The translations under genes were made by a program, and so were the position numbers. Shown piece by piece: positions 1 through 62,444 of a stretch of DNA of 64,000 bases (positions are counted from its first letter, which is position 1; each line of letters starts with the position of its first letter). The stretch is from Xestospongia muta (taxonomy: Eukaryota > Porifera > Demospongiae > Haplosclerida > Petrosiidae). The notes below the pieces were generated by a model. It did not search any database. It saw only the letters and a program-made list of their open reading frames with translations, and was not told the origin of the DNA. The stretch spans positions 8,063,156 to 8,127,155 of the forward strand of contig OY848918.1 in NCBI GenBank assembly GCA_963693285.1, written 5' to 3'.

Positions 1-1636
1 AATATTAGTAAGTGTACAATAATGTATTAAATGTTACTGTCATAATTAACTTGTGATGGAGTATAGAAAATACAAGTACTTCAATGTTTTTATCACAAGT
101 TATATCTGAGACAATTACTGCATCTTCAAACTTAGCTAGTAGGTTCATAGCAAATTAAATATTAATTGTACATATAATGATTATATAATTTATAGTAGTT
201 CATATATCAAGTTCTATCTATAGCTTTTTAAGTTCATTTCTTATTAATTATTAATTTAATTATTATAATAAAAATAAATATTTCTACTCTGACAGTCACT
301 ACTACATCATCATCAACATCATCTACTGGAATATATTATGTTATTGGGACTGTTGGAGGTATTATTGTTTTCATACTAATTGTTGTAGTACTAGTTCTAA
401 CTGTTTGTATAATGATTAGAAGACAAAATAAAAGTTAGGCTCTCTTGTAATTTCTTGATGCTTTAAAACTCTCAATATAGCCAACAAACCAAGTGGTAGT
501 CCATTAACTGTTTCTCTGAGGTAAACTAATACAGTCATATAATGTGTTAACAGTTCAATGATCATACTTTAGAAGTATCAAAGACAATAACATAGAAGAG
601 GTATAATATTGTCACTTACATGTACAAAGCTAAGAACAGGAATCAAATTTCAAATCCTATACAATACCTACACAATAAATTAAATATGACATTTATTTGA
701 TGTCAAAATGAGCATTAAACTCACCATTAGTTGTAACACATTCAAGTCAATCTAATGTCAGGAGTTAGTCATCATTCCTTTATATTAGACGTTAATAGTC
801 ATATCTGATGTTTATTAATTCTGTTATAGATATCATCAAATCCTGTTTATGCAGAAGTAAACAAGAAATTAAAACCTTTATCTCTACAACATGATGATGT
901 CCCTCCTCCCATATCACCTTACTTAGTTGATAATGACCAACCACCTCCTATACCTCTGTTTCATAGTAGAGATGAACCTCCTGTACCACCTTATAGTGAA
1001 TCTTTGACAACACATTACTCTGAAGTCAAGAAAAAGCATGTGGCACCTCATGTATTACCTCATAATAGTACAGCAGCTAAAGGAGATTATTCAGTATTAA
1101 ATAGAGATGATATACCTCATGTACCACTACATAATGTGACAGCTGGAGGAGACTACTCTGTCATAAGTAGAGATGATATACCTTATGGTAAAGCAGCTGG
1201 AGGTGTCTATTCTGTCTTGAAGAGAGAAGAGAGAGAGGTTAGTTAAACATAGGTAGTCTAATTTACAATATTATTATAGAGCGGAGAAAATAATTCTCAG
1301 TTACAACAGACTGGTTTGTATTCAACTCTAAATGATGAAGTATGAGATAATACAGTCAACTATATCATAAAAACTCACATCATATTAGATCAACAAACCA
1401 GCTGGAACTATGCCAAAAGGAGCTGGAAATATAGCATATGATGAATTAGACAATGTTCCTAAGAACATACCAATGACACCTCCTACATCAAATTTAAAGC
1501 AGTCTGTTATCTACTCTGATATCAAGGTGCCAACTGATTCTAGTAAGGTATGATATATTATGATATATGGTATAATTATCATTCTCTTTTTAATCTCTTA
1601 CAGAGGTTCTCTACAAGTGAGGACAATCAACAATAG
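1..1636 (+). CDS. A1: class A immunoreceptor-like protein, 3' part (stalk, TM, long Tyr-motif tail)
   Basis: The 5' end lies outside the window. Exons seen: 1-7, 67-138 (Ser/Thr-rich stalk), 296-433 (TM), 481-520, 573-600, 830-1237, 1280-1339, 1389-1547, 1604-1636 (stop TAG). All have GT-AG borders and matching phases, giving 314 residues. The TM segment runs from YYVIGTVGG to TVCIMI and is followed by RRQNK as stop-transfer. The tail holds NPVYAEV (NPxY), PPPISPY, PPPIPL, PPVPPY, THYSEV (ITSM-like TxYxxV), DYSVL, DYSVI, VYSVL, LYSTL, IAYDEL and VIYSDI (both ITIM-like). No catalytic domain is present. By analogy with vertebrate immune receptors it probably docks SH2/PTB/SH3 adaptors or phosphatases; that is inference. 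The reading frame is intact throughout. Confidence 0.82.
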
Positions 1637-3635
1637 TAACATCCTCCGTACATCACCTGTAAAATGATAACAATATATTTTTAACTTACTGCTGACTTGT
1701 ATAATGTTATAATGTGTTACTTTTTAGTTCATTATTTTATTGTGTCATCACAATATACATGTACATGTATATGTATATAACCACATACATAGAATACAGA
1801 TTAATACATTGATTATATTTAATGTTCACTAATTTCATATTACTGAATACAATATCAAAATGAGCTATCAACTTACATTCTTATTATTCACATAATGATG
1901 TATATCAAGTTTAGATGATAACTTGACAGCTGTTTGTACTAAATAAAGTATGATATACTGTTGTAGTAAATATTACTATATACCAGTATATAATACACTA
2001 TATTGTTATACTTCTGGCAATAATATGACTGATAATAAATTAAGTAGAGAATGTATTACAGCTAACCTCATTGGTTTTAACTATGATAACAAATCGTGTT
2101 GACAGCTGTTCATATTGAGTAGACTATGATATACAGTTGTAGTAAATATTATTATATAATAGATTATAATACTATTCCCTTATACTACTATATTACTATA
2201 ATACTAAATTACTAATATAATATTAATATATGATACACTATGATACTTCTCTTTATAAAAATAATATTATAATACATTATATTAATATACTATTATACTT
2301 CTATAATAATAATATATAATACACTATAATATTTAATATCATTATTGCCCTTATTATTAACAGATTGCTGTTGTTACTGTAAATAAAGTCACTCAATACA
2401 GTGTTACACTCCATTACATATGTCCTCCTTTATTTACTTGTAGTTTGTCTATTTATTACAAAATATGTACAATGATCTAATACTTGTACTTAATGAAACA
2501 CTTGTTGCGATGACTAAAATAACAGGAGAAAGTACTAAGTACATTTACTAATACTAAGTATCAATTAATACTGATCTCTCTCAGTCAGTAGAGTATATAG
2601 TACAGAGTAGTAGGGTTTGATACTTAATGGCACATAATATATTATATATACATATATAGGCTAGCTATAAACAATAATACTTACTGTCATAAAAAAGACT
2701 AAATTGACAAAATGGAGAAAAGGATATAGTAATGTATTTCTCCATAAACAATGTTGTCTCTTAGTTCAAGATATTGTTTCTCAATGTTAGCTTTATTAGT
2801 AGTGTCATATATAGGAGACAATCCCTTTGTATGACAATTGTTTCTTTCACATGACAAACAAGTGTATCATTGATGTGATGATGATAGCTATTACTGATGA
2901 CAGTATTGTCACTAAATAGTATATACTACAACTGTAAGTAATTTAAATGTTATTGCTGTTGATAATAAACTTATGTTTACCTAACAAAGAAGTACTCATA
3001 TCACATTCTATATTATTGTAATCTATAAAATTGAACAAACTCACATAGATTAATGGTTTAATAATATATTTTATATGAAATATATTTACTCTACTCTACT
3101 TAGTATATGAAAACATGAAAAAAACATGACACCTTAAAATATAGTATCAATACATATTACTTGTTGATATACTGAACCATAAATTATATCTATATAACAA
3201 TACTGATATCTAGCTATTTATTATTTACTTTACTTATGAGAACAGTGCCCAAAATATCAATATCAGAGGAGACAGAATAAAAGTATAACATAAAGGTCAC
3301 TAACATTATTACAGTAATATTATTACTAAGACTACTACCATTACATTGACAGAATAGTATCACTGTTGTATCCTACATATGTTAAATAATACAATAATTG
3401 ACTTTAAAATACTGATATAGAACAAAGTATAAATAATTTGATTGTAATATTGGTAGTTTTATATCTAGCTATTACATTATCAATACTTTAAGGTCTGTCA
3501 ATATAATGTTCATCAATTCTTACTTTAATGTTGTTGTTTCTACACAGGATATATACTTAATGAAGAATACACAATGTTCCATTACCATCTGTTTAGATAT
3601 CTTGTCTATATAAACATGTTGACTTATCTAATATT
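1637..3635. other. A1-A2 spacer, first half: dispersed AT-rich modules
   Basis: No gene seen. It contains two copies of a module around GACAGCTGTT plus GATATACTGTTGTAGTAAA (about 1925-2010 and 2095-2180), runs of TATAATAC, and further modules at about 2990-3110 and 3330-3450. The same modules recur in the same order at about 16.9-17.6, 24.4-25.5 and 55.3-56.5 kb, so this is duplicated spacer rather than unique sequence. Confidence 0.6.
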
Positions 3636-3758
3636 GTCCAATAATAACAGTCTATAATATATAATACAACATACATTGACTATATAGTATGTAATACTGT
3701 CCAATAATAACAGTCCATAATATATAATACAACATACATTGACTAAATAGTATGTAAT
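3636..3758. repeat. 63-bp minisatellite, two copies
   Basis: Two tandem copies of a 63-bp unit that starts GTCCAATAATAACAGTC and ends GACTATATAGTATGTAATACT. The same unit forms longer arrays at 9943-10318 and 57450-57762 and a single copy at 17562-17612. It is always followed by the same flank (TGGTTTTAGTTGAAG) and, about 200 bp later, by a relic class B tail. Confidence 0.85.
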
Positions 3759-3948
3759 GGTTTTAGTTGAAGTAATGTTTGTACAAAATATATCATTTAC
3801 TTTGAGTTGTTAGTTTAACTATATCACAACATTGACATGTTTATTTTATCATCAGTAACTATGTATAGCTATAGTTATTGTAACATGATACTGTATATGA
3901 CTAACATTAGTACAATTTATGTAAGTGAAGACTAACTGATGTTATTAT

Positions 3949-4055
3949 CATCTCTCATTATGAGGAGGAGGAGCTACAATAAAGACACTCCATCCACTAC
4001 TACTACTACCACCCAATTAGGTCATATATATAAGTTACCAGAGAAAGAAACATGG
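3949..4055 (+). pseudogene. Relic class B TM/tail exon
   Basis: About 100 bp match the class B terminal exon: the codons for MRRRSYNKDTP, the Thr-run and QLG are recognisable. The YDDV codons are lost through a deletion, so the line reads GGTCATATATATAAG instead of the intact copies' sequence. The same damaged version recurs at 10505-10615, 17805-17900 and 57950-58060, so the damage predates spacer duplication. Confidence 0.75.
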
Positions 4056-6220
4056 ATTAAAAGATACATCATTAACAATTACATAATAATATTATAATTG
4101 TAAAATGTCATCTTACAATTGTTTTGAAAGTACCATTAATATTATTACTAAATGTAGGTTGAGACTGGTTCCATTGACCTTATAACAAACAACTTCTTTC
4201 TCTACTAATAAGTTAACAAGTATGTTGTTCTATAAGTCATTATTTTAAGGACATATTACATAATAGTGATATATTTTGGTTATATAACAATTCAGTGTAA
4301 TTATGAACTATAATAGATACTAGATATCATGTTGTTCAACTACTACCACTAGATATTAGTTAAGACTTCATAATGTATATATATTACTAACAGAGGATAT
4401 TAGAAGTAGTCCTCTCATGTGACTGAACCTAGAGCAAACTAAATTAACAAGAATGATTTTAAGCAAACACTTCTAACCTGATTATAAGTGTACATTACAC
4501 AACATCATAATGATTTATAGCTCTTATCTAGTTCCTCTCAAATCACTGGACAATGTATAGGACATGAATTTGGTTCATCAGGAAATAGAATAGTGTTATA
4601 AGAATAATATAATTATTAGACTCAACACACCCACTCACTTAAACATGTTGATTACTGAGGTGATTCTGATGAGGATGGAACAACAAACAATTCATATTTT
4701 AATTTAAAACACTTACATTGACCAAACAGCTCCTTTTTTAATTATACAGTACTCAAGAGAACACTTAGGTTAGTGTTAATATATATATATATATATTCCT
4801 AACATTAGATATTGAAAGTAGTCCTCTCATGTGACAGTATATCAATAATACCAACAAGTATTACAAGTAAGATATTAATATACTATTAACTACTAAGTGA
4901 CAACAGCCATAGTTATAAACTGAGGTACATGTACATATTATGAACTCCATTTTAGAAATACACATTACTATTGTTATGATGTTATATAGTATATTACACT
5001 CACTCAGTATTAATAATGAGCACATTTATATATAATTACTTATAATGTTAGATCTTATCACTTATTAATTCTAACTCAATTATAAGGTCATACATTCACT
5101 TATATCAATTTGTATTTAATTTAGATGTCTTGTTTACATTAATAAGTACCACTAATACAACCAATACTATTACATCAACAATGTACACACAAAGTACATT
5201 AGTATAATTATAGTACTGTTATATCTACATTATCAACAACTGATACTTCTAGTAAGTAAAACTCTATCCATACAAAATATTTTCTTAATTCATTCATTGC
5301 TATATATAATATAGATAAATACATATATTTCTATTGTTGAACTAACAAGTTCACATTTATTATTTAAAGTATATTCTATTATTTGATACACATTTAAAAA
5401 TATTGTGACTACAAGATTTTATATTATATGACTACGAACTATGTGTACTAATTTATTATTAAAATATTAATATCTTTTATTTAGAAAATATAAATATTAC
5501 TAATTATATATAATATAAACAATCATTTTAGTTTGTATCATTAACATCTGTTATTAGTATTATTTGGTCAACACACATTGTATATTGTATTTCATCTTTA
5601 GTTATATTAATGATTGTTTATTGTAGAAAAATGATGTTAACATGAACATCATCCTTTTAGGAAAAATAATCTTGATAAGTAAATACACAACATAGCAATA
5701 ATGATCTACAGACTTTATAATAATAAAGCAATAACAATAACATATATTATATTAAAATACAATCCATATAAATATGACATGCTATATAGACCACATGTTA
5801 TATATTATATACTATACTCCAATATAAGTTACTACTTAAAACTAGTGCTTATATTTTTAATGTAATTGTGTTATTTATATAATGTAGTAATTAACACTCA
5901 CCACAACATGTAGGTGAAGGCTACAGTACTTGCTTTGTTACAGCTAGTAATTGACTAAAGTATTTAGTTCTAAAAATATTGAAATTATGAAAAATATTAA
6001 AAAGAAAAAAAGGTTAATTTTTTCAATTTGATGAAAATGAGATTACTAATTATTAAAAATACTTATATAATAACAAAGTTAAACAAATGGTTAATATGTC
6101 ATCACTGTTTTTTTACTTTCATGTTTCCAAGTATGCACGTATACATGTATATAGATCTCAACAACACCCACACACATACAGTAATAATATAATTAGTCTA
6201 TATTTTACTAAATAGGCATT
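4056..6220. other. A1-A2 spacer, second half
   Basis: No intact gene. It holds duplicated spacer blocks shared with 10.6-12.2 kb in the same order, and parts of them with 18.0-19.3 and 58.2-60.3 kb. At 5125-5251 there is an exon-like Thr-rich stretch with acceptor TTTAG and donor GTAAGT, interrupted by a stop. Around 5638-5760 and 6120-6190 are two dispersed modules (one containing ACATGAACATCATCCTTTTA, one containing ACTCAACAACACCC-like sequence) found many times in the window. Confidence 0.55.
5125..5251 (+). pseudogene. Relic Thr-rich stalk exon
   Basis: A stretch bounded by TTTAG and GTAAGT codes for Thr/Ser-rich peptide at both ends but contains TAA/TAG in between. Its length (127 nt) does not keep the phase 1-1 rule of the family's stalk exons. 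A near-identical copy sits at 11276-11402. It is probably left over from a lost family member. Confidence 0.4.
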
Positions 6221-6330: not shown

Positions 6331-9315
6331 ATGGATAAGTGTGCTGTAATATATTTGATTTCTCTTCTCTTAGTTATCACAAGTGAGTTAATATATTATA
6401 ACATAATATTTGTAGTTTATTTCTTAAAATGAACATAGAAGCTTCAGTTACAAGTCTAGACTGTAATCATGGAGTATGTCCACAGACACAAGGAGCAGTA
6501 ACTTGTACAATAACAGGCAGTACAGTAGCTTGGTATTCTCCTCCATCAGATAGTAATCTCATTGCTACAGTAAAAACCTCTGGAGAAGTTAGTAATGTTG
6601 GTAATACTGGGTTTACTGCTGCTTTTGTGACCAACAATTCTGGACTAACAACTAATTTAAGTTTTACTGCCACTGCTGATAAGAATGGAACACAAGTCAG
6701 GTGTTTGGATGGTGACAATAGAAACTCAATGATTTGCACTATCATGATATCAGGTATGTCACTAATAGTATCATATATAACTAACATGTACTATCATTAT
6801 AAGACCCTCCAAGTGATACTCCTACAGGACTGGGTTTTACAGCTCTCACAAACACTTCAGTTACTCTCTATTGGTCACCTCCTACTCTTCATCCTAACTG
6901 TATACTTAACTACACTGTTGAGATCAGGACAACCAGTGATAATATATTGATCAGTAATCTTAGTACTGGTAGTAATATCACCAGTATTAATGTATCTACT
7001 GGTCTCTCTCAGTCAGTAGAGTATCAGTACAGAGTAGTAGGGTTAGAACCCTGTAGTCAGTATACTATGTTCACTCTGGATGGTAAGAATCAAATTGTTT
7101 TAATATCTTAAGTAATATGCTTTATTAGTTCTACAAGCTGTACCACTAATTACTTATACCATTACTAGCAACACAGAGGATTATACTATTTTTATTGTTT
7201 GGGAGGTATAATATTATTTATGATTCCTTGATAATATGCTAATTTCATTTAGTCACCTCCTCTCTCCTCTTGTCCTCCTCTCTTGTACTATAAAGTCTAT
7301 CACAACATATCAGGTTCACTAACTGTTAATATAACTACTGTTACTAACATTACATTAACTGGAGTACTAGCTGGATATACCTACATTATAACAGTGATAC
7401 CAGTTAATATACTAGGAGATGGATACCCTAATAAGACTATAGGTTATTTATATTTTATTATAAAGTGTGATATATTTACTCATACAGCTATCATTCCTAA
7501 TGAAGAACCAATAATCACTAGTGTCATAACAACATCATTTCAATATCATAGTAAGGATGTTTAACATAAAAATATTATTTTAGTTTAAACAATCAATTAT
7601 TTAACATCAATAACATCATTAGGTGTACTTAGTACATTGTCTGTAGTCATGACAAGTGATACATCAAATATTAGTAAGTATACAATAATGTATTAAATGT
7701 TACTGTCATAATTAACTTGTAATGGAGTATACTTCAATGTCTTCATCGCAAATAACAACTCAGACAATCACTTCAAATGGAGCTAGTAGGCTCTATGTAT
7801 TTTAAAAAATTTTGTTGATATTAGTTGCCCTAATTATAATAGATATATATAATTTATAGGTTTTCATATATCAAGTTCTATCTATAACTTTTTAAGTTCA
7901 TTTCCCATAAACAATCCAACAAGTATTAATTTAATTATTTTAATAAAAATAACTATTTCTACTTTGACAGTCACTACTACAATATCATCAACATCATCTG
8001 CTGAAATATATTATGTTATTGGGACTGTTGGAGGTATTATTGTTTTCATACTAATTGCTGTAGTACTAGTTCTAACTGGTTGTATAATGATTAGAAGACA
8101 AAATAATAGTCAGACCTCTTGTAATTTTTTGATCCTTTAAAACTTTCAATATAGATAACAAACCAAGTGCTAGTCCATTAACTGTTTCAATGAGGTAAGC
8201 TCACACATACTAATAACCATTTTTATGATCATTCTTTAGAAGTATCAAAGACAATAACAGAGAAGAGGTATAATATTGTTACTTATATGTACAAAGCTAA
8301 GAACAGGAATCAAATTTCAAATCCTATACAATACCTACACAATAAATTAAATATGACATTTATTTGATATCAAAATGAGCATTGAACTCACTATTAGTTG
8401 TAACACATTCAAGTCAATCTAATGTCAGGAGTTAGTCATCATTCTTTATATTAGACTTTAATAATCACATCCAATTTTTATTAATTTTCTTATAGATATC
8501 TTCAAATCCTGTCTATGCAGAAGTAAACAAGAAACAAAAACCTTTATCTCTACAACATGATGACATCCCTCCTTCCATACCACCTTACTTAGTTGATAAT
8601 GACCAACCACCTCCTATACCTCTGTTTCATAGTAGAGATGAACCACCTGTACCACCTTATAATGAATTTTTGACAACACATTACTCTGAAGTCAAAAAAA
8701 AGCATGTGGCACCTCATGTATTACCTCATAATAGTACAGCAGCTGAAGGAGACTATTCAGTATTAAAGAGAGAAGATATACCTCATGTACCACTACATAA
8801 TGTAACAGCTGGAGGAGAGTACTCTGTCATAAGTAGAGATGATATAACTTATGGTAAAGCAGCTGGAGGTGACTATTCTGTCTTGAAGAGAGAAGAGAGA
8901 GAGGTTAGTTAAACATAGGTAGACAATCATAATTTAATTTACAATATTATTATAGAGCAGAGAAAATAATTTTCAGTTACAACAGACTGGTTTGTATTCA
9001 ACTCTAAATAATGAAGTATGAAATAATACAGTCAACTATATCATAAAAACTCACATCATATTAGATAAACAAACCAACTGGAATTGAGACAAAAGGAGAT
9101 GGAAATATAGTATATGATGAATTAGACAATGTTCCTAAGAACAGACCAATGACACCTCCTACATCAAATTTAAAGCAGTCTGTTATCTACTCTGATATCA
9201 AGGCACCATTTGATTCTAGTAAGGTATGATATATCATGATATATGCTATTATTATCATTCTCTTTTTGATCTCTAACAGAGGTACTCTACAAGTGAGGAC
9301 AATCAACAACAGTAA
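6331..9315 (+). CDS. A2: complete class A Ig-FN3-FN3 receptor with long Tyr-motif tail
   Basis: Exons: 6331-6382 (signal, MDKCAVIYLISLLLVIT), 6439-6753 (Ig), 6804-7082 (FN3-1), 7129-7205 and 7253-7442 (FN3-2), 7488-7550 and 7623-7673 (stalk), 7971-8108 (TM), 8155-8194, 8240-8267, 8496-8903, 8956-9015, 9065-9223, 9280-9315. The total is 631 residues: signal 1-17, Ig 18-122, FN3s 123-304, stalk 305-355, TM about 356-383, tail to 631. The tail has NPVYAEV, PPPIPL, PPVPPY, THYSEV, DYSVL, EYSVI, DYSVL, LYSTL, IVYDEL and VIYSDI. Oddities: the usual acceptor of the Ig exon is mutated (AAAA instead of TATAG), and an acceptor 9 nt downstream keeps the frame; the second stalk exon has lost its acceptor and is presumably skipped in frame; six residues are missing near the end of FN3-1. 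Inferred to be a type I surface receptor signalling through recruited SH2 proteins. Confidence 0.82.
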
Positions 9316-12290: not shown

Positions 12291-15245
12291 ATGGATAAGT
12301 GTGCTGTAATATATTTGATTTCTCTTCTTTTACTTATCATAAGTGAGTTAATATATAATATTTGTTAGTATGACCTTATAGTGAACATAGAAGCTTCAGT
12401 TACAAGTCTAGACTGTAATCATGGAGTATGTCCACAGACACAAGGAGCAGTAACTTGTACAATAAATGGCAGTGTAGCAACTTGGTATCTTCCTCCAATA
12501 GATAGTAATCAAATTGCTACAGTAACAACCTCTGGACTAGTTAAAATTTTTCGTAATACTGAGTTTATTGCTAATCTTGTGAGCAACAATTCTGGACTAA
12601 CAACTAATTTAAGTTTTACTGCCACTACTGATAAGAATGGAACACAAGTCAGGTGTGTCGATGCAACAGATAGAAACTCAATGACTTGTACTATTATGAT
12701 ATCAGGTATGTCACTAACAGTATCATATATAACTAACATGTACTATCATTATAAGGTCCTCCAAGTGATGCTCCTACAGGACTGGGTTTTACACCTCTCA
12801 CAAACACTTCAGTTACTCTCTACTGGTCACCTTCTACTCTTCATCCTAACTGTATAATTAACTACACTGTTGAGATCAGGACAACCAGTGATAATATATT
12901 GATCAGTAGTCTTATTACTGGTAGTAATATCATCAGTATTAATGTATCTACAGGTCTCTTTCAGTCAGTAGAGTATCAGTACAGAGTAGTTGGGTCTGAC
13001 ATTATTAATAGATTAGGACCCTATAGTCAATATTTGAACTTTACTCTGGATGGTTAGAATGAAATAAGTATAATTTTAAAAACGTTATGTATATTTTATT
13101 GATTAGTTCTATTAGCTGTACCACTACTCTTTTATAATATTACAAAGAACACAGAGAACTACACTATTGTTGTGATTTGGGAGGTATATATTATGGCTCA
13201 TAATATTGTTACTCTAATTTCATTTATAGTCACCTTCTCTCTCCTCTTATCCTCCTCTCTTGTACTACAAAGTCTATCACAACATATCAGGTTCACTAAC
13301 TGTTAATATAACTACTGTTACTAACATTACATTGACTGGAGTACTAGCTGGATATACCTACATTATAACAGTGGTACCAGTTAATATACTAGGAGATGGA
13401 TACCCTAATAAGACTATAGGTTATTTAAATATTATCATAAAATGTGTTACATTTACCTCTCATACAGTTATCATTCCTAAAGAACCAGTTATTACTGGTA
13501 CTAGTGGCAGTGCTAAACCAACACCATCTCAATATCATAGTAAGAGTGTTTAAGATATAAATATTATTTATATTTAAAACAATCAATTATTTAACATCAA
13601 TAACATTATTAGGTATACTTAGTACATTGTCTACAACTGTAGTCATGACAAGTGATACATCAAATATTAGTAAGTGTACAATAATGTATTAAATGTTACT
13701 GTCATAATTAACTTGTGATGGAGTATAGAAACTATAAGTACTTCAATGTCTTTATCACAACTTGTAGCTGAGACAATTACTGCATTGTCAAACATAGCTA
13801 GTATGTTGTATGTGCTTTTGAAAAAGTTCTTTTAATTATTAATTGTAAATATAATGTCTATATAATATTATATTATTTCGTATATCAGGTTCTGTCTCTA
13901 GCTTTTAAAATTCATTTTCTATAAATAATCTAACAAGTATTAAGTTAATTGTTCTAATAAACTATTTCTACTTTGATAGTCACTACTACAACATTATCAA
14001 CATCTGCTGGAATATATTATGCTATTGGGACTGTTGGAGGTATTATTGTTTTCATATTAATTGCTGTAGTACTTGTTCTAACTGGTTGTATAATGATTAG
14101 AAGACAAAATAAAAGTCAGACTTTCTTGTTATTTTATGATCCTTTAAAACTCTCAATATAGATAACAAACCAAGTGGTAGTCCATTAACTGTTTCTCTGA
14201 GGTAAGCTAATACAGTCATATGTGTTAACAGTTCAATGATCATACTTTAGAAGTATCAAAGACAATAACATAGAAGAGGTATAATATTGTTACTTACATG
14301 TATAAAGCCAAGAACAGGAGTCAAATTTCAAATCCTATACAATACCTACACAATAAATTAAATATGACATTTATTTGATATCAAAATAAACTCACCATTA
14401 GTTGTAAGACATTCAAGTCAATCTAATGTCAGGAGTTAGTCAACATTCCTTTAAATCAGACTTAAATAGTCACATCTGGTTTTTATTAATTCTGTTTAGG
14501 TATCTTCAAATCCCATCTATGCAGAAGTAAACAAGAAACAACAACCTTTATCTCTACAACATGATAAAGTTCCTCCTCCCATATCACCTTACTTAGTTGA
14601 TAATGACCAACCACCTCCTATACCTCTGTTTCATAGTGGAGATGAACCACCTGTAGCACCTTATAATGAATCTTTGACAACACATTACTCTGAAGTCAAG
14701 AGAAATCATGTGGCACCTCATGTATTACCTCATAATATTACAACAGCTGAAGAAGATTACTCAGTATTAAAGAGAGATGATATATCTAATGTACCACTAC
14801 ATAATGTGACAGCTGGAGGAGACTACACTGTCATGAAGAGAGATGATGTATCTCATACACCACTTTATAGTACATCAGCTGAAGGTGATTATTCTGTCTT
14901 GAATAGAGAAGAGAGAGAGGTTAGTTAAACATAGGTAGATAATCAAAGTCTAATTTACTTTATTATTATAGAGCAGAGAAAATAATTCTCAGTTACAACA
15001 GACTTGTTTGTATTCAACTTTAAATAATGAAGTAAGAGATAATACAGTCAACTATATCATAATAACTTATGTCATATTAGTCAAACAAACCAATTGGAGT
15101 TGGACCTGAGCCAAAAGGACCTGGAAATATAATACATGATGAATTAGGCAATGTTCCTAAAAACAAGCCAATAGCACCTCCTGGATCAAATTTAGATCAG
15201 TCTGTTATCTACTCTGATATTAAGGCACCAGCTGATCCTACTTAG
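12291..15245 (+). CDS. A3: class A Ig-FN3-FN3 receptor, stop moved to last splice junction
   Basis: Exons: 12291-12342 (signal, MDKCAVIYLISLLLLII), 12382-12705 (Ig), 12756-13052 (FN3-1), 13107-13183 and 13230-13419 (FN3-2), 13468-13539, 13613-13669, 13729-13800 (three Ser/Thr-rich stalk exons), 13980-14114 (TM), 14162-14201, 14251-14278, 14500-14919, 14972-15031, 15081-15245. The total is 662 residues. The frame is open through all exons. The tail has NPIYAEV, PPPIPL, THYSEV, DYSVL, DYTVM, LYSTSA, DYSVL, LYSTL and VIYSDI; the IAYDEL motif is IIHDEL here, so its Tyr is lost. The exon that normally splices to the terminal RFSTSEDNQQ exon ends in an in-frame TAG, and the unused last exon at about 15310 has itself picked up a stop. 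The extracellular part is close to that of B1. Confidence 0.82.
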
Positions 15246-17612: not shown

Positions 17613-17804
17613 GGTTTTAGTTGAAGTAATGTTTGTAAAAAATATATCATTTATTTTGAGTTTTTAGTTTAAGTATATCACAACATTGACATGTTTATTC
17701 TTTCATCATATACTATGTATAACTATAGTTATTGTAACATGACGTTGTATATGACTAACATTAGTACAACTTAATGTAAGTTAAGACTAACTGATGCTAT
17801 TATC

Positions 17805-17900
17805 AACTATCTCATTATGAGGAGGAGGAGCTACAATAAAGACACTCCACTCACTACTACTAATAAAGTACAATATATGAATTACCAAAGAAAGAAATGT
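17805..17900 (+). pseudogene. Relic class B TM/tail exon
   Basis: The codons for MRRRSYNKDT are present, then degenerate sequence. It is in the same position relative to the 63-bp unit as the relics at 3949 and 10505. Confidence 0.65.
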
Positions 17901-33180: not shown

Positions 33181-33184
33181 ATAA

Positions 33185-33200
33185 TATAAACTCAACCCAC
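33185..33200 (+). promoter_or_regulatory. Probable TATA box and promoter block of B1
   Basis: TATAAACTCAACCCAC, 112 bp before the B1 ATG. Confidence 0.45.
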
Positions 33201-33296
33201 AAAACACACCACCTCCATGTATAAATAAATCTAACAGGTATCATTGCCATTCATAAATCCATTGTATCATTACCATAATCTACCCATGTAGTCAAA

Positions 33297-39748: not shown

Positions 39749-39776
39749 TTACCATTCTCTTCATTGTCATTAACAG

Positions 39777-43008: not shown

Positions 43009-43311
43009 AAGTCTGGGCTGCAATCATAGAGCCTGCTCACAGAAATGAGGAGAAATCTCTTGTACAATAACAGACATTACTGTAGCAGTTTGATATTCTT
43101 CTCCATCAGATAGCATATGCACTGTAACCTCCGGACAAAAATGTACCAAATACTTTATTGTAATGTATTGGTTTATTGCTGCTCTTGTAAGTATTAACAA
43201 TCCTGGACTAACAACTAATTTACGTTTTACTATCACTACTGATAAGAATGGAATCAGGGATGTTGAAGTTCAAAATAGAAACTCAATGACTTGTACTATT
43301 ATGATATCAGG
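43009..43311 (+). pseudogene. Degenerate Ig exon
   Basis: A recognisable Ig exon (start GCTGCAATCATAGAGCCTG, end ATGATATCAGG) with stop codons and indels in its first half. The second half (ALVSINNPGLTTNLRFTIT, NSMTCTIMISG) is better kept. No neighbouring signal or FN3 exons. Confidence 0.7.
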
Positions 43312-43836
43312 TAGCAATATTAATTTAAAACTAACTAGTAGTAATATTATCAATATTTATTCTCTTATATTTTATGTATTCTCTCTTAAAAGAAATACAT
43401 AAATATTTATTTCATTACAGGAGGAAAACTAAATATAACAATTAAGTTTTCCAATTGAAGAGGTTGCAATGAAATGTAAATAGAACTATTATATAGCAAT
43501 GCTTTAGATTAAAGATTTGCTTCATTAATCAAATAAAGGACACTATCATTGGTTGATTAACCACAATATGTCAGGATGCTAAATCTTGAATTACCATGAT
43601 ATCATTACAGATGAAAATTCAGAATATTCTTTTCATAAAATTGCTTAGATCTCTGCCTGGCAATTTTCTTATTCCCTTGTCAATTGCAACCTGCTTTTCT
43701 CAAAATGATGTCAATTATTGATTGTCTCAACACCACTGTACTTGTACTGTACTTGTCACTTCTTTTTTGATAGTGTCATAAAGATATGGAATTTGTGACT
43801 CACAATTTACTAAATTGATTTATATATATATATAAA

Positions 43837-44271: not shown

Positions 44272-46021
44272 ATGGAAGTAAAAGTTGTTTCCATTATTAT
44301 TCCCCTTATCTGTTTATTCTTATTCAGTGGTAAGAGCAAAAATATGAAGTGATATTTGCCTGGCATTCTTTAGGACAATGTCTATCTGAAGTGATCTTTC
44401 CATGTCATGATATTTGTCTACAAGATAATGTGGTATATACTTGTACTGGTATTGGAGCTAACCTGATAACATGGACTGTTCCTAACTTAATGGGTGGAAC
44501 TATAGAGCTACAAGTTCATCAGTATCATCGAGATGATACTAGTGGTCTATTTACTGCACAGTTTGTATCATATCAGAACAATAACATAATATCTACACTG
44601 TCTTTTACTACTACTACTGTACTACATAATAAAGACATAGTGTGTGATACTGGAGGTAGTAGTAAGACATGTAACAATATAATTATTGGTAAGATATTTA
44701 TAAAGATACTATATAAACTATTACTATTATTATATACTATATAGGTAACCCACAGCTCCATTAAACCTCAGTGTTGTAGCTACTACTCCTCATACAGTAG
44801 TTGTTACATGGACATCACCAGTTACTGGTAGTCAATGTATAGATCATTATATTGTAACTGTGTTCAATGAAACACACAATACTATGACATCAGTTAATAC
44901 AACAAATAATATCACATCTTTCACAATATATGGACTAGTAATAGGAAATAACTACTCATTTACTGTTAAAGGTGTTGATTATGCTGGTAGAACTGGATCT
45001 AGTAGTCAGTCAATATATCTTGTACTTGATGGTAAGGAAATATTATACAATGCTAATATTTTTCATACAATTGCTATGCATTACAGTTCCAGAGTCAGTT
45101 GTTAATCTTGCATATATCTTTGATGAAACATACATGACAATTTTGGTTACATGGAAAGTAATTACATTACTATATCTGTCACAACTTCACATCATATGAT
45201 GGCAGTATATTACACAATATCACTAACAATATAACACAACTCACTTTTAATGGTATTAGTTATGGTAACAAGTATAGTGTGACTGTAACAACTGAAAATG
45301 TGGTAGGACAAGGACCAGGAATTAACATTGAAGGTAATGAGAAGACTTACAAAAATTAATTGATGCTTGTACAACAGTAATTATATCATCACATTTATTT
45401 TCAACAAGTTTGTCATCAGTAAAAAATACTTACTATACTTCACTGCCAACTTCAAGTTCAACAGTAGCATCTTCACAATTAATATTTGGCTCTTCAAAGA
45501 CACATCATGGTAAGACATGTAAGTACTTGATATTTATTGTCTGTCGTGTACTGAAATACTATAATATGTACATTGGTATTTATTAATGTAGTTATTTCTA
45601 TTGGTGGATACTACACTACTTCTGTGATTACTTCAACATTGGTGTGTACATCTACATCACCATCAATGTTAACAACAACTGTGACATCTTGTATAAAAGA
45701 TACTATGATAGAAAGCTCAAAAGAAGAATCCTTAAACTTATCAGGTAACATACATACAAATAATTTGTCTAAACTAACATTGTAAATCATTCATTGTACT
45801 GTGTATTTTTAGTTGCTATTCCAGTCAGTATGTTTCTCTCTTCTTTTCTTACTGCTGTTATTACAACTTTCATTGTTTATTTTGCTATGAGAAGGAAGAA
45901 TTGGTGTACAAAAGAGACTATTGCTAACCAATTGGTATCAGTATATGACTTATCAAAGAACTCAAATAAAGAGACCATTGAGCTGAAGGAAAACACTGCT
46001 TATGGACATATTCAGTATTAG
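44272..46021 (+). CDS. C: diverged Ig-FN3-FN3 short-tail receptor
   Basis: Exons: 44272-44329 (signal, MEVKVVSIIIPLICLFLFS), 44374-44688 (Ig, 105 residues), 44756-45031 (FN3-1), 45087-45157 and a piece ending at 45333 (FN3-2), 45378-45509 and 45592-45744 (Ser/Thr-rich stalk), 45813-46021 (TM, tail). The TM segment is close to class B (VSMFLSSFLTAVITTFIVYF), and the tail ends TAYGHIQY, again TxYxxI; IYDDV is replaced by SVYDLS. Same exon phases as the array, but most residues differ, so it is an older relative. Lesion: between 45158 and about 45185 the usual intron acceptor and start of the second FN3-2 exon are missing and the frames do not join. It is either a recent deletion or a sequence error; everything else is open. 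Confidence 0.65.
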
Positions 46022-46750
46022 TTTTCATAATGGACCAAAATATTGTGTTTATAGTGTAGTTGATTTTAATATAATACTTTATATAAAGTATAGTTAGTAT
46101 GGTTCTGTATGATAAAAATACTGTATGGACTAGGAAAATAAAATCAATAACTAACACTGCTAAATATATATAAACAAGACAGTTATGGATCTAGTAGTTA
46201 GTCAGTATAATTAATCATGTATTTGATGGTAAGGAAATATTATACAATTAATGTTATTTTTTATATACAATTACTATGCATTAAAGTTCCAGAGCCAATT
46301 GTTAATCTTACGTATATCTTTGATGAAACTTAATGTGAGATCTAATAGTATGTACTAGTACTACATTCTAATAAATTAATATATATTTTAATTTAATAGA
46401 ATGTAGCATTATAATATATACTCAACATTATTGTAGAGTTCTCACTATCAAAGAGTGAAACATTATTAAGGTATGCAGTAATTATGTAACCAAGCTATCA
46501 TAGCGTCTCTACCAGAAAGAACAAAAGATCTAATGGAGATATGGTATACTATAAAGTTTTAAAGATTTTACTATAGTGTCTTAATAAAACTAATCCTAGT
46601 ACTGAACTAAGAAATTGTATGGTTCTTTTAAACTTGCTATTGAATATCTTGACATTGGTCTTCTCTGACTACAAAATACAGTCTCTCTCTTATTTATGTC
46701 ATTTGTTATATCTGTTTATGTCTCTTCCTAATTTAAAAATTTTATTTCAG
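46022..46750 (+). pseudogene. Partial duplicate of gene C (FN3 exons) and spacer
   Basis: 46175-46335 repeats, with damage, the end of C FN3-1 (TATGGATCTAGTAGT to GATGGTAAGG) and the start of its FN3-2 (VPEPIVNLTYIFDET). The rest to 46750 shows nothing recognisable. Confidence 0.55.
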
Positions 46751-46918
46751 ATATCATCAGACCCCACCTGTGTTGAAATACATAAAAAATGTATATCTTT
46801 ACAATATGATGAACTCCCTCCTTATTCAGCTGATAATGACCTCCTACTCTATACCTCTGTTTCATGATGGAGATGAACCACCTCTATGTCCTTATAATGG
46901 ACCTGTGCCAACATGATA
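46751..46918 (+). pseudogene. Relic of the class A long tail exon
   Basis: After TTTCAG the frame reads ISSDPTCVEIHKKCISLQYD then PPYSADND, and shifts out of frame at CTCCTACTC before the DEPPLCPYNGP part. The NPVYAEV Tyr is lost (Cys). No other class A exon is adjacent. Confidence 0.65.
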
Positions 46919-48560: not shown

Positions 48561-50530
48561 ATGATAAAGTATAGTGTAACATTGATTTGTCTTCTATTAT
48601 CAGTCATAAGTGAGTTAATATACAATATTTGTTAGTATGACATTATAGTGAAAATAGAGGCTTCAGTTACAAGTCTAGACAATAATCACGGAGTATGTCC
48701 ACAGACACAAGGAGCAGTCACTTGTACAATAACAGGCAGTTTAGCAACTTGGCATTCTTCTCCATCAGATAGTAGTCCCATTGCTACAATACATTCTAAA
48801 CAACTTAGTAATGTTGCTAATACTGGCTTTACTGCTGTTATTGTGAGTATTAACAATCCGAGACTAACAACTAATTTAAGTTTTACTGCCAATACTGATA
48901 AGAATGGAACAAAAGTCAGGTGTAGAGATGAAATAGATACAAACTCAAGTACTTGTACTATTACGATATCAGGTATGTCACTAACAGTATCATATATAAC
49001 TAACATGTACTATCATTATAAGGTCATCCAAGTGATCCTCCTACAGGACTGGGTGTTACAGATCTCAAGAACACTTCAGTCACTCTCTATTGGTCACCTC
49101 CTATTCTTCATCCTAACTGTATAGTTAACTACACTGTTGAGATCAGGACAACCAGTGATAATATATTGATCAGTAATCTTAGTACTGGTAACAATATCAC
49201 CAGTATTAATATATCTACTGGTCTCTCTCAGTCAGTAGAGTATCAATGCAGAGTAGTAGGGTCTGATATTATCAATAGATTAGGACCCTATAGTCAATAT
49301 ACTATGTTCACTCTGGATGGTAAGAACTAAATTATTTAACGTTTTAAGCAATGCTAATTTTATTAGTTCTACAGGCTGTACCACTAGTCATTTATAATAT
49401 TACAATGTATACAGAGAACTACACTATTGTTGTTAATTGGGAGGTATATATTATTGTTCATAATATTGTTGCTCTAGTTTCCTTTAGTCACCTCCTCTCT
49501 CCACTTGTCCTCCTCTCTTGTACTACAAAGTATACCATAACATATCAGATTCACTAACTGTTAATATAACTACTGTTACTAACATTACATTGACTGGAGT
49601 ACTAGCTGGATATACCTACATTATAACGGTGGTACCAGTTAATATACTAGGAGATGGATACCCTAATGAGACTATAGGTTATTTAAATATTATTATAAAG
49701 TGTGTTATGTTTACTTCTCATACAGTTATCATTAATGATCATTAATGATCATTCCTAAAGAACCAGTTATTATTAGTACTAGTACTAGTGTTGTAACAAC
49801 ATCATCCGAATATTACAGTGAGAATATTCAATATAATATTAGTTACAGTAATTATTTAATTAATATATATGAACAATAACCACAACAAATGTAGCCAGTT
49901 CATTTTCAACATCAGTAATGATCATAAGTTATTTATCAAATATCAATAAGTATAAACAGTAAATACAAACCTCTCATAATTTATTTGATTTGTGATGAGT
50001 ATAGAAACTACAAATACTTTGATGTCATTGTTAACCTCAACAAATACTGCATCTTCACATTTAACTAGTCCGTTCATATAACAATGATCAATTTTAATAT
50101 TATGATGAAATTTTAATTCTGTACTTTGACAGTGACAGTATGCTCACGAGTAACTACTGCTGTTTGTCTAAGTATGTCTTCATACAGTATGGTATAATTA
50201 GATATATTTCTATTATAACTAATGAAAAACAATAAATCTCATGTTTATCAGGTAATAAACAAACATGTTACATTACTGAATTGTTTACTTAACAGTGAGT
50301 ATACCGGTCAGTAAGTTCCTCTCATGTTCCTCTCTTCTCTATTAACTGCTGTTATTGCTACACTTATATTCTATCTCATTTTGAAGAGGAGGAGCTACAA
50401 TAAAGACACTCCACCCACTCTTACTACCCAATTAGGTCCAATATATGATGATGTTAAGTTACCAGAGACTTCAGAACAGAAAGAGATCATTGAATTACAA
50501 GGAAATATGGCTTATGGATATATTAATTAA
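48561..50530 (+). pseudogene. B3: class B receptor copy with several small lesions
   Basis: Intact exons: 48561-48609 (signal, MIKYSVTLICLLLSVI), 48649-48972 (Ig), 49023-49319 (FN3-1), 49367-49443 and 49488-49677 (FN3-2). Then the stalk exon from 49726 carries an extra doubled ATTAATGATC block that brings a stop. Stalk exon 50133-50171 is fine. The next one lost its acceptor (TATAA) and has a stop. The TM exon (from 50296) has a short duplication of TTCCTCTC that shifts the frame before the TM. The tail after 50324 is open and ends NMAYGYIN, so TxYxxI has become MxYxxI. The first Ig Cys is Asn (LDNNHGVC). Confidence 0.72.
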
Positions 50531-52508: not shown

Positions 52509-54418
52509 ATGAAAAAGTATAATACAACATTGATTTGTCTTCTATTACCAGTCATAAGTGAGTTAATATACAATATTTGTTAGTATATCCTTATAGTAAA
52601 GATAGAAGCTTCAGTTACAAGTCTAGACTGTAATCATGGTGTATGTCCACAGACACAAGGAGCAGTCACTTGTACAATAACAGGCAGTACATTAGTTTGG
52701 TATTCTCCTCCATCATATAGTAATCCCATTGCTGGTGTAACAACCTCTGGACAAGTTATAAAGTTTGGTAATAATACTGCGTTTACTGCTGCTCTTGTGA
52801 GCAACAATTCTGGACTAACAACTAATTTAAGTTTTACTGCCACTACTGATAAGAATGGAACACAAGTCAGGTGTAGTGATGGTAGAACTTCAATGACTTG
52901 TACTATTATCATATCAGGTATGTCACTAACAGTATCATATATAACTAACATGTATTATCATTATAAGGTCCTCCAAGTGATGCTCCTACAGGGCTAGGTT
53001 TTATAGCTCTCACAAACACTTCAGTCACTCTCTATTGGTCACCTCCTATTCTTCATCCTAACTGTATGGTTAACTACACTGTTGAAATCAGGACAACCAG
53101 TGATATTATGTTGATCAGTAGTCTTAGTACCGATAGTAATATCACCAGTATTAATGTATCTACTGGTCTCTCTCAGTCAGTAAAGTATCAGTACAGAGTA
53201 GTAGGGTCTGATGCTATTAATAGATTAGGACCCTATAGTCAATATTCTGTGTTCACTCTGGATGGTAAGAATCAAATATTCTCAATATCTTAAGTAATGT
53301 GTTTTATTAGTTCTACAAGCTGTACCACTAATCACTTATACTATTACAAATAACACAGAGGACTATACTATTTTTATAGTTTGGGAGGTATAATATTATT
53401 TATAATTCCTTGAGGTATTATTCTAGTTTCATTTAGTCACCTCCTCTCTCTTTTCATCCTCCTCTTTTACACTACAAAGTCTATCACAACATATCAGGTT
53501 CACTAACTGTTAATATAACTACTGTTACTAACATTACATTGACTGGAGTACTAGCTGGATATATCTACATTATAATAGTGGTACCAGTTAATATACTAGG
53601 AGATGGATACCCTAATAAGACTATAGGTTATTTAAATATTATTATAAAATTTGTTATGTTTACTTCTCATGCAGTTATCATTAATGATGACGAATCACTC
53701 ATTACTAGTGTCATAACATCATCATTTCAATATCATTGTAAGAGTATTTAATATGATATTACTTACAGAAATTATTTATTTAATATATCAACAATAACCA
53801 CAACAAATGTAGCTAGTTCATTTTCAACATCAGTAATGATCATAAGTTATTCATCAAATATCAGTAAGTATGAATTTATCATGATTTGTTTGACTTGTGA
53901 TGAGCATAGAATCTTTGATATCTCAGTTAATCTCAACAAATACTGCATCTTCACATTTAACTAGTATGTTTGTTTAACAGTGATCATTTTAAATATTAAG
54001 ATAGTAATTTTAATTCTTCACTTTGACAGTGACAATATGTTCACCAGTAACTACTGCTGTTGGTAAAAGTAAGTTTTCACTACAGTAAACTACCATTAGA
54101 TATATTTCTATTACAGATAATGAAAAACAACAATCATCATGTTTATCAGGTAATAAAACAAACATGTTACATTACTGAATTGTTTACTTAACAGTGAGTA
54201 TACCAGTCAGTATGTTCCTCTCTTCTCTATTAACTGCTGTTATTACTGCATTTATTGTCTATCTCTTTATGAGAAAGAGGAGCTACAATAAAGACACTCC
54301 ACCCACTACTACTACCCAATTAGGTCCAATATATGATGATGTTAAGTTACCAGAAACCTCAGAACATAAAGAGATCATTGAATTACAAGGAAATACTGCT
54401 TATGGATATATTAATTAA
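52509..54418 (+). CDS. B4: complete class B Ig-FN3-FN3 receptor
   Basis: Exons: 52509-52557 (signal, MKKYNTTLICLLLPVI), 52597-52917 (Ig), 52968-53264 (FN3-1), 53311-53387 and 53437-53626 (FN3-2), 53675-53737, 54030-54068, 54117-54149 (stalk), 54195-54418 (TM, tail). The total is 430 residues, all open, and all phases fit. TM is VSMFLSSLLTAVITAFIVYL with MRKRS stop-transfer; the tail has GPIYDDV and TAYGYIN. A further exon-like stretch ending at about 53862 (SSFSTSVMIISYSSNI) fits poorly by phase at its start and may be a decaying stalk exon. Ig loop residues differ from B1 and B5, while the framework is the same. Role as for B1. Confidence 0.87.
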
Positions 54419-60584: not shown

Positions 60585-60615
60585 ACTCAGCCCACAGTTT
60601 TCGCCCACAGTTAAA

Positions 60616-62444
60616 ATGGAGAGGTATGATGCAACAGTTGTTTGCTTTCTCTTCCTTGTCAGAGGTAATATTATAACTTTATCTTATACTATTATGAATA
60701 AAATGTACAGTGTAATTATAGTTTATACAGGAGCTTCAGTTACAAGTCTAGACTGTAATCATGGAGTATGTCCACAAACACAAGGAGAAGTCACTTGTAC
60801 AATAACAGGCAGTGTAGCAGTTTGGCATTCTCTACCAAATAGTAGTCTCATTGCTAGTGTAACAACCTCTGGACAAGTTATAAAGTATGGTAATAATGGG
60901 TTTACTGCTGTTCTTGTGAGTATTAACAATCCTGGACTAACAACTAATTTAAGTTTTACTGCCACTACTGATAAGAATGGAACACAAGTTAATTGTCATG
61001 ATGGAACAGGTAGAACTTCAATGACTTGTACTATTATGATATCAGGTATGTCACTAACAGTATCATATATTACTAACATGTACTATCATTATAAGGCCCT
61101 CCAAGTGATACTCCTACAGGACTGAGTTTTACAGCTCTCACAAACACTTCAGTCACTCTCTACTGGTCACCTCCTACTCTTCATCCTAACTGTATAGTTA
61201 ACTACACTGCTGAGATCAGGACAACCAATGATAATATATTGATCAGTAGTCTTAGTACTGATAGTAATATCACCAGTATTAATATATCTACTGGTCTCTC
61301 TCAGTCAGTAGAGTATCAGTACAGAGTAGTAGGGTCTGATATCATTAATAGATTAGGACCCTGTAGTCAATATATAAACTTTACTCTGGATGGTAAGAAC
61401 TAAATTATTTTAACTTTTTAAGCAATGCTAATTTTATTAGTTCTACAGGCTGTGCCACTAATCACTTATAATATTACAAAGAATACAGAGAAATACACTA
61501 TTGTTCTAAATTGGGAGGTATATATTATTGTTCACAATATTATTATACTAAAATCCTATTGTCACCTCCTCTCTCCTCTTGTCCTCCTCTCTTGTACTAT
61601 AAAGTCTTTTGCAACATATCAGGTTCACTAACTGTTAATATAACTACTGTTACTAACATTACATTGACTGGAGTACTAGCTGGATATACCTACATTATAA
61701 CAGTGGTACCAGTTAATATACTAGGAGATGGATACCCTAATAAGACTATAGGTTATTTAAATATTATTATAAGTGTATTATGTTTACTTCTCATACAGTT
61801 ATCATTTCTGAAGAACTAATAACAACTAATCCTAGCATTGTAAAAATATCATCTGAACATTGTAAGTGTGGAAATGCTCAATATAAATTATAATAAAAAT
61901 TACGTATCATTAAGTATTAGTAACACCAGTAAATGTGCCTAGTCCCTGTTCTACAACTGTAGTTATTACAAGTGATAGATCAACTATTAGTAAGTAGAAA
62001 ATAGTGATCAATTAATATTAAGCTGTTCATTTTAATTCTTTACTTTGACAGTGACAGTATGTTCACCAGTAACTACTGCTGTTTGTCCAAGTATGTCTTC
62101 ACTACAACAAATTACAATTAGATATATTTTCATTATAGCTAATGAAGAACAACAAACATCATATTTAGCAGGCAATTTATAAAGCAAACATATTACATTA
62201 CTGAATTGTTTACTTAACAGTGAGTATACCAGTCAGTATGTTCCTCTCTTCTCTATTAACTGCTGTTATTACTACACTTATTGTCTATCTTATTATGAGG
62301 AGGAGGAGCTACAATAAAGACACTCCACCCACTACTACTACCCAATTAGGTCCAATATATGATGATGTTAAGTTACCAGAGACCTCAGTACAGAAAGAGA
62401 TCATTGAATTACAAGGAAATACTGCTTATGGATATATTAATTAA
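60616..62444 (+). CDS. B5: class B Ig-FN3-FN3 receptor, one splice acceptor lost
   Basis: Exons: 60616-60664 (signal, MERYDATVVCFLFLVR), 60731-61045 (Ig), 61096-61392 (FN3-1), 61441-61517 and 61562-61751 (FN3-2), 61799-61861, 61915-61989, 62052-62090, 62139-62171 (stalk), 62221-62444 (TM, tail GPIYDDV and TAYGYIN). If all are used, 453 residues. Three oddities. The first intron is 66 nt, in frame and stop-free, so it could be retained. The acceptor before 61562 is TATTG instead of TTTAG, with no usable AG nearby, which should break FN3-2 splicing. The intron after 62171 starts with GC rather than GT. The signal exon differs from all others. All coding exons are open. Confidence 0.68.

Follow-up and report, generated by a model that had tools for sequence, protein, structure and literature searches.

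The window, a stretch of 64,000 nucleotides of Xestospongia muta DNA, contains genes predicted to encode type-I membrane receptors with a distal V-set immunoglobulin (Ig) domain, two fibronectin type III (FN3) domains and a Ser/Thr-rich stalk, and it lies within an array of such receptors on chromosome 2. The most likely function, which we propose with moderate confidence, is that this V-set receptor array reads individual-specific (self/non-self) surface ligands, for allorecognition and the control of cell mixing.

Receptor genes in the window

An earlier note on this DNA had claimed at least 14 copies of one receptor family in 64 kb; from ORF families and repeats, we counted 16 whole, partial or broken copies within the window. 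Only U1, U2, U6 and U10 are intact genes lying wholly inside it; U0 is also intact, but it begins upstream of the window, in L011, and ends at window position 1553. The damaged copies are U3, U9, U11 and probably U8, while U4, U5, U7 and additional fragments are partial. All coordinates below are on the + strand except those of U7.

U0 (1..1553) is the 3' part of a long-tail gene whose 5' exons lie in L011. Its 14-exon model over L011 and the window has GT-AG introns, an open frame and eight Yxx[ILVM] motifs in the tail, with a transmembrane (TM) exon at 296-433 and tail exons at 481-520, 573-600, 830-1237, 1280-1339 and 1389-1553. U1 (6331..9229, 621 aa) is an intact long-tail receptor with GT-AG introns and an open frame in the spliced model; the acceptor of exon 8 is lost and the exon is omitted in phase, and a shifted acceptor is used at exon 2. 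The spliced model of U2 (12291..15245), also an intact long-tail receptor, has 14 exons and GT-AG introns and encodes 662 aa, with the Ig domain at 12382-12705, FN3-1 at 12756-13052, FN3-2 at 13107-13183 and 13230-13419, the TM at 13980-14114 and the tail at 14162-15245. Spliced models also gave two intact short-tail receptors, U6 (33297..34939, 421 aa) and U10 (52509..54418, 11 exons, 465 aa).

The damage could be placed in three genes. The long-tail gene U3 (21090..23856) has an in-frame stop in stalk exon 6 and a TGA in the main tail exon, and the short-tail gene U9 (48561..50530) has a stop in stalk exon 6, a lost exon 7 donor and a frameshift in the TM exon; the Ig and FN3 exons are open in both. 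In the short-tail gene U11 (60616..62444), the FN3-2b acceptor reads TG and stalk exon 7 contains a stop, with Ig and FN3-1 open. U8 (44272..46021; ORF families and Pfam scan) is a member of a divergent subfamily with a short-type tail, its Ig domain being 25-30% identical to those of U6 and U10, and it is probably damaged by a one-base misfit at the exon 3 join. ORF families further identified U4 (25481..25953; the end of Ig plus FN3-1), U5 (29227..31467; signal and Ig exons, a long-tail TM at 30490-30624 and tail pieces, with FN3 exons incomplete or missing), the short-tail copy U7 (38600..39812, - strand; FN3 pieces, TM and tail) and a partial Ig copy (43094..43399), as well as short-tail relics at 3936..4094 (TM/short-tail ORF family) and 17775..17951 and a long-tail relic at 46577..46913. 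The exon phases were shared, as the note had stated: the ectodomain modules are phase 1, and the introns of U2 are GT-AG. Neither Rfam nor tRNA scanning gave a match in the window.

Domain structure of the ectodomain

The checks suggested for the claimed plan of one Ig and two FN3 domains, an HMM search and structure prediction, both yielded support, by different routes for the two folds. FN3-1 alone exceeded the Pfam fn3 cut-off of 25 bits (31.2 bits in U6), FN3-2 passed the same cut-off only once its two exons were spliced (27.3 bits in U2), and the whole proteins U2 and U10 each showed two fn3 stretches. The Ig exon had no Pfam Ig match above cut-off, the nearest being the sub-threshold bacterial Ig-like family Big_3_5 (E 0.14, U10); its AlphaFold2 model is a V-set domain, with a predicted nine-strand V-type sandwich and a C-W-C core. 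A PDB profile search with the Ig alignment returned nothing significant (best E 0.5), and when homologues of the full U2 protein were sought, a single FN3-repeat protein came back and nothing else. Because the Ig domain falls below the Pfam cut-off, this receptor family would probably be overlooked in surveys of sponge immune genes that count Pfam domains.

Extent of the array

The receptor cluster runs beyond the window over about C2:7.37-8.75 Mb, or ~1.4 Mb. This interval contained 94 of the 95 long-tail matches, 148 of the 150 Ig matches scored (from 263 candidates), 148 of the 150 short-tail matches scored (from 216 candidates) and 145 of the 150 matches scored in a further search (from 373 candidates). 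The clustering is more than chance, because nearly all tail and Ig matches fall in one interval, and the receptor gene has over a hundred copies at this one locus, with about 100 Ig-bearing units.

Two tails on shared ectodomains

Long and short tyrosine-motif tails were both present, as expected from the note. The long tail carries seven or eight Yxx[ILVM] motifs, including ITIM and ITSM types, together with an NPxY and PxxP sites. Among the three of the array's long tails that were examined, a strict ITIM occurred once in U2 (VIYSDI) and twice each in U0 and U1, and the ITSM-type motif THYSEV was found in all three. The short tail has YDDV and an ITSM-like TAYGYI. Neither TM stretch (short, VSMFLSSLLTAVITTLIVYLIM; long, GIYYAIGTVGGIIVFILIAVVLVLTGCIMI) contains charged residues, and the genes examined yielded no strict ITAM, so that an activating short form can only be tentative.

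The tails next behind 116 Ig exons were long in 53 cases and short in 50, as assigned by nearness only (at a distance of <4.5 kb, with no further Ig in between on the same strand); 116 of 150 Ig, 91 of 95 long-tail and 125 of 150 short-tail rows were used, after removal of short fragments, of weak matches and of those lying outside the array. Tail type was scattered over trees of 29 genes, those of the 32 examined with a tail found, and the label was slightly less scattered on the joined-ectodomain tree (8 changes; 70 of 500 shuffles were as low). By sliding identity, U2 and U6 have the ectodomain in common and differ in their tails, with U6 being a mosaic of a short-type 5' end and tail around a U2-like ectodomain. 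The claim that long and short tails sit on a common variable ectodomain is thus upheld by both the trees and this pair. The type of signal peptide does not predict the tail perfectly: in L017 the signal peptide is of the long type but the tail is short, and in the distal half of the array short-type signal peptides occur in long-tail genes.

Selection and diversity of the Ig domain

Selection statistics came from 32-34 genes, drawn from 26 fetched array loci outside the window and 8 window copies; where an exon of a copy contained a stop, that copy was excluded from the statistics of the exon. The sample was not random, because the genes were picked by similarity to U6. The tree-based omega was 0.98 for the whole Ig exon, not above 1. 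Omega was about 0.5-0.6 for FN3 and 0.44 for the Ig framework; these two values indicate purifying selection. The F-G part of Ig alone gave an omega of 1.08 and the variable segment a maximum-window permutation p of 0.027, figures that go with hypervariable sector bounds set after viewing the data and with dN/dS assumptions that are broken by paralogues exchanging sequence. Variable residues were related to the fold through the strand list of the model. A mutation hot spot behind the variable segment was rejected, since synonymous changes were fewer in residues 31-65 (21 in 35 codons) than in the remainder (63 in 64). These patterns fit diversifying selection acting on part of the Ig domain.

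We also compared a database set of Ig ORFs (117 proteins, of which subsets of 32, 21 and 9 were used), with contigs told apart by size alone. Some ORFs on contigs of 1,554,166 and 841,867 bases were 99-100% identical to Ig exons of the assembly. Four Ig ORFs of further long contigs were tested and all were absent from the assembly, the database proteins being clustered at 90% identity, and we infer that these further contigs represent the alternate haplotype. The apparent diversifying selection on part of Ig and the divergent Ig genes on other contigs are compatible with an allorecognition role.

Proposed function and alternatives

Our proposal for signalling, ligand and allorecognition role builds on the gene structures, V-set prediction, clustering, selection, tail mixing, missing Ig ORFs and the SHP-type (SH2-SH2-PTP) phosphatase genes present in the X. 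muta genome. The distal V-set Ig would be the variable, ligand-contacting part, held off the membrane by the FN3 pair and the Ser/Thr-rich stalk, and the contacts may be V-V, between family members. Ligand contact would lead to tyrosine phosphorylation of the tails; the long tail would then recruit SHP-type phosphatases and other SH2/PTB/SH3 proteins, so that the response is restrained or modulated, and the short tail would give a different, perhaps activating, output. Recombination inside the array would exchange ectodomains between the two tails and generate new variants, and both outputs would therefore read the same ligands. More tentatively, the array may be a sponge histocompatibility complex, a 1.4-Mb haplotype of about a hundred V-set receptors in which individual-specific ligands are read by a hypervariable C-C'-C''/CDR3-like surface, recombination continually re-pairs the two outputs with the same ectodomains, and SHP-type phosphatases act as conserved effectors. 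If so, paired V-set receptors and SHP-coupled self-recognition would exist outside eumetazoans.

The same receptors and paired-type signalling could instead meet microbial ligands, as a germline-diversified innate family that sorts symbionts, food and pathogens, a possibility that we rate as doubtful but serious. X. muta has a dense microbiome, an analogous proposal exists for expanded SRCR families, and microbe-driven selection would leave the same pattern; V-domain selection and tail mixing would also suit paired receptors facing non-self ligands (PMC3533184, excerpts). Available portions of PMC4772301 describe expansions of immune-receptor domains in sponges, with SRCR-like domains as possible recognizers of microbial ligands, but report that the immune-domain repertoires of Stylissa and Amphimedon exceed that of the congener X. 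testudinaria. We think it unlikely that the family serves cell sorting, adhesion or gamete recognition, with variable V-set domains as codes for homotypic adhesion, inside one individual or between several, and tails that only tune the cytoskeleton. Adhesion molecules often have ectodomains that combine V-set and FN3 domains. A review (PMC11999971), as far as its excerpts go, presents the sponge IgSF chiefly in an adhesion role; the seven or eight Tyr motifs, the mixed two-tail ectodomains and the very large rearranging array exceed, in our judgement, usual adhesion.

Many copies are broken or partial, as they would be if the array were mostly decayed tandem duplicates of little function and the selection signal were relaxed constraint or conversion noise. 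We already disfavor this reading and consider it very improbable: splice sites are conserved and frames open in most copies fetched from the array, FN3 and the Ig framework appear to be under purifying selection, and residues 31-65 are no mutation hot spot. An assembly artefact, in which the array would look too large because haplotypes or repeats had been placed in tandem, is hardly credible, even though some blocks recur almost exactly (equal-score matches at 8,229,130 and 8,283,528, 54.4 kb apart). Near-full Ig exons among the matches listed are mostly 64-94% identical to that of U6, hence not plain repeats; the 1,554,166- and 841,867-base contigs bear the near-identical ORFs described above; and the uncertain-order stretch of chromosome 2, at 16.1-18.9 Mb, is outside the array.

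For the self/non-self reading, the background is that sponge discrimination is described as remarkably specific and that repeatable graft responses imply a polymorphic genetic system (PMC5450542, excerpts, with classic Xestospongia exigua graft work among its references). In the available portions of the open-licence PMC literature, we recognized no sponge allorecognition locus or receptor locus of this kind, and the accessible text of an Amphimedon graft transcriptome paper yielded no mention of immunoglobulin. The array is a mapped single-locus candidate for sponge self/non-self recognition that combines a variable V-set domain with signalling tails and has candidate effectors, so that genotypes of grafted pairs could now be used to address sponge allorecognition. 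The array is also relevant to how V-set immune receptors and ITIM/SHP-type signalling arose.

Comparison with known systems

Paired receptors are defined by similar ectodomains, different signalling tails, an ITIM in the long form and a chromosomal cluster (PMC3533184, excerpts). The X. muta array is like the KIR, LILR and PILR type in these features, and this part of the KIR/LILR-like layout claimed in the note stood. Strict KIR/LILR membership was rejected, given the uncharged TM, including that of the short form, the lack of a strict ITAM in the genes examined and a short tail with Tyr motifs of its own. The ectodomain, a V-Ig with two FN3 domains, also differs, and the likeness described here is one of layout.

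Hydractinia Alr comprises at least 41 clustered IgSF loci, many of them likely pseudogenes, with highly polymorphic Alr1 and Alr2 ectodomains and Ig membership backed by AlphaFold (PMC11067881, excerpts), and it has V-set and I-set domains (PMC11999971, excerpts). The supposed resemblance to Alr extends to clustering, a V-set-like first domain missed by sequence profiles, Tyr motifs and possible signs of polymorphism, but not to I-set Ig: X. muta has two FN3 domains in place of further Ig-like domains. The X. muta array also differs in its about 100 Ig-bearing units and its two alternative tails on mixed ectodomains, and the likeness, drawn against published descriptions, is again one of layout.

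Botryllus fuhc/fester, according to partial sources, are histocompatibility genes that are polymorphic in a sessile invertebrate with fusion or rejection on contact; their domain plans differ from that of the X. muta array, and so does the number of genes. Geodia RTK, sponge adhesion molecules and aggregation factors are, in the excerpts available, surface or matrix molecules also discussed in adhesion or self/non-self recognition. Sponge Ig molecules and aggregation factors are known as single or few genes, and no Mb-scale V-set/FN3 two-tail array was found among them in the accessible portions of the open-licence PMC literature. Within the X. muta genome, other tandem arrays coding for Ig or phosphatase domains occur on C7, C5, C11 and C12 and at C2:9.4-9.7 Mb; unlike those of the receptor array, their Ig domains are recognized by PF07679, and they represent different families at different loci.

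Organization of the receptor array

The V-set/FN3 receptors form a very large, rearranging, single-locus family in which two kinds of tail occur, and part of their V domain carries a diversifying pattern. All-against-all ORF comparison and a repeat search revealed one exon set recurring repeatedly across the window, and the count of receptor copies, which the earlier note had put at at least fourteen, came to 16, including whole, partial, and broken ones. The reference genes modeled for the long tail (U2) and the short tail (U10) have GT-AG introns with fitting phases, in agreement with the shared exon phases also claimed there. The exon order runs from the signal peptide through Ig (phase 1-1), FN3-1 (1-1), and FN3-2 (two exons) to a stalk of several small Ser/Thr-rich exons, the TM exon, and a tail encoded by one or more exons after it. 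Four copies read through openly (U2, 662 aa; U1, 621 aa; U10, 465 aa; U6, 421 aa), and the long-tail gene U0, with 14 exons and its 5' part within the 10 kb preceding the window, is also open throughout. Copies U3, U9, and U11 are damaged, U8 is probably damaged as well, and all remaining copies are partial. Window positions 3625-3758, 9933-10318, and 57438-57761, which lie between receptor units, share one 63-bp tandem repeat.

Across the genome assembly (28 contigs; 158,027,690 bases), the long-tail exon had 95 matches (all 107 candidates scored), 94 of them within C2:7.47-8.75 Mb, on the contig of the window, and the remaining one at C2:14.85 Mb. Similarly, 148 of 150 scored Ig matches fell within C2:7.37-8.71 Mb, 148 of 150 scored short-tail matches within C2:7.37-8.74 Mb, and 145 of 150 scored FN3-1 matches within C2:7.37-8.71 Mb, with two further FN3-1 matches at 7.28-7.29 Mb. 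Of 116 near-full exons taken from the Ig matches, 110 were on the plus strand, and the median spacing was 6.8 kb; the next tail behind them was long in 53 cases, short in 50, and not found in 13. The window (C2:8,063,156-8,127,155) thus makes up roughly one twentieth of a single array. A lone array member, L027, sits on another chromosome (C1:33.17 Mb, minus strand); its Ig and FN3-1 exons are stop-free with conserved splice sites. Near-identical blocks, spaced about 54.4 kb and 55.6 kb, occur within the array at C2:8.225-8.29 Mb and C2:8.51-8.58 Mb and are either recent segmental duplications or assembly duplications.

Two tails on common ectodomains

The two kinds of tyrosine-motif tail proposed in the earlier note are real and differ in size and motifs. 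The long tail (237 to 242 aa in U0 and U2) contains seven to eight Yxx[ILVM] motifs, one ITSM-type motif, one to two strict ITIMs, one NPxY, and several PxxP motifs; the short tail (47 to 48 aa) carries YDDV and YGYI, the latter inside TAYGYI, which matches the ITSM pattern too. Scanning of the genes with a readable tail (U0, U2, U6, and U10) revealed no strict ITAM, and neither TM type has a charged residue.

As read from sequence, both tails are borne by the same ectodomains, the layout that the earlier note had described, and this is borne out by the scatter of tail labels on trees and by a mosaic gene. In 29 genes (15 long and 14 short, the tail being assigned by nearness), the Ig, FN1, and FN2b trees each had 9 tail-label changes, and shuffled labels behaved alike (means of 9.9 to 10.0). 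The joined tree had 8 changes, and as few were obtained in 70 of 500 shuffles. The minimum number of changes forced by starred branches was 3 on the Ig, FN1, and joined trees and 1 on the FN2b tree. U6 is a direct case of tail mixing, since a U2-like middle part is set between a U10-like front and rear: its identity to U2 is 57 to 60% at 33,100-33,300, 88 to 100% at 33,400-34,600, and 45 to 65% further on, while its identity to U10 is 82 to 95% in the front part and 89 to 96% from 34,600 onward.

Diversification of the Ig domain

In 32 to 34 genes, mean dN/dS was 1.11 for the Ig exon, compared with 0.57 for FN3-1, 0.56 for FN3-2a, and 0.48 for FN3-2b, values from a class of methods that conversion between copies weakens. 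For the Ig exon, dN exceeded dS in 315 of 528 gene pairs. Tree-based counting gave omega values of 0.98 (Ig), 0.63 (FN3-1), and 0.62 (FN3-2b); thus, by this method omega does not exceed 1 for the Ig exon as a whole. The Ig counts differ from those of FN3-1 (p = 0.010) and of FN3-2b (p = 0.005). Residues 31-65 and 92-98, which correspond to strands C to D and to the F-G turn behind the second Cys, had 211 nonsynonymous and 33 synonymous changes (omega 2.14), versus 89 and 63 in the remainder of the exon (omega 0.44). This sector, which was delimited post hoc, differs from the remainder (Fisher, 7e-10) and departs from neutrality (8e-6); for the best 30-codon window, the permutation p was 0.027. 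Separately, residues 31-65 had an omega of 2.69 and the F-G part 1.08. The same Ig sites vary on a separate 1.45-Mb contig, with a rank correlation of site entropy of 0.79.

Ig variants on other contigs

Used as a database query, the U6 Ig ORF retrieved 117 proteins, 112 on ENA contigs and 5 from the window itself. Contigs of 1,554,166 and 841,867 bases include Ig copies 99 to 100% identical to fetched Ig exons of the assembly, and further Igs lie on contigs of 1,454,069 (32 of the 117 proteins), 1,600,931, and 726,659 bases. Four of the latter (two from the 1,454,069-base contig, one from the 1,600,931-base contig, and one from the 726,659-base contig) had best identities of 91, 84, 82, and 82% in the assembly and therefore are absent from it. 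Twenty-one Igs of the 1.45-Mb contig were 76 to 95% identical (median, 84) to the closest listed assembly Ig, in a protein set whose clustering at 90% identity hides shared alleles, and differences per site were 0.28 at the variable residues and 0.08 elsewhere. In a tree of 74 Igs, genes of this contig and of the assembly interleave non-randomly, with 31 changes of contig label versus a shuffled mean of 42. The simplest reading is that this contig is an alternate haplotype. Four database proteins on two of the other contigs (P0082, P0086, P0094, and P0112) form a deeply divergent Ig clade, with 32 to 39% identity to the U6 Ig.

Possible roles and signaling partners

The signaling direction, ligand, and biological use of the receptors are matters that we infer. 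Individual-specific recognition is the use that we favor, with about even confidence; recognition of microbes comes second and seems rather unlikely. In the open-licence PMC literature, a scope outside which most subscription journals and bioRxiv preprints fall, we recognized no report of a comparable locus in a sponge.

SH2 had 76 matches in the genome (all 94 candidates scored), and four genes encode SH2-SH2-PTP within a single open frame, three in tandem at C3:11,956,215-11,961,741 and one at C5:8,741,067-8,742,560 (loci L043 and L044). The best structure matches of the C5 protein were SHP-2 (E = 1.4e-196) and then SHP-1 (1.9e-174). By inspection, the PTP signature (active-site) loops are altered in two of the three C3 copies, and C8:8.077-8.079 Mb probably holds an exon-split gene of this type. 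Given the presence of the four SHP-type genes, ITIM-SHP coupling is possible.

Tandem arrays of I-set Ig exons, recognized by PF07679, occur at C7:0.30-0.67 Mb, C5:0.94-1.33 Mb, and C5:4.66-4.74 Mb; tyrosine-phosphatase matches are interspersed among the exons of the C7 array, a pattern that suggests tandem Ig receptor phosphatases. Large tandem arrays of exons for tyrosine-phosphatase domains lie at C11:3.76-3.99, C12:0.98-1.33, and C2:9.41-9.70 Mb (150 of 521 candidates scored).
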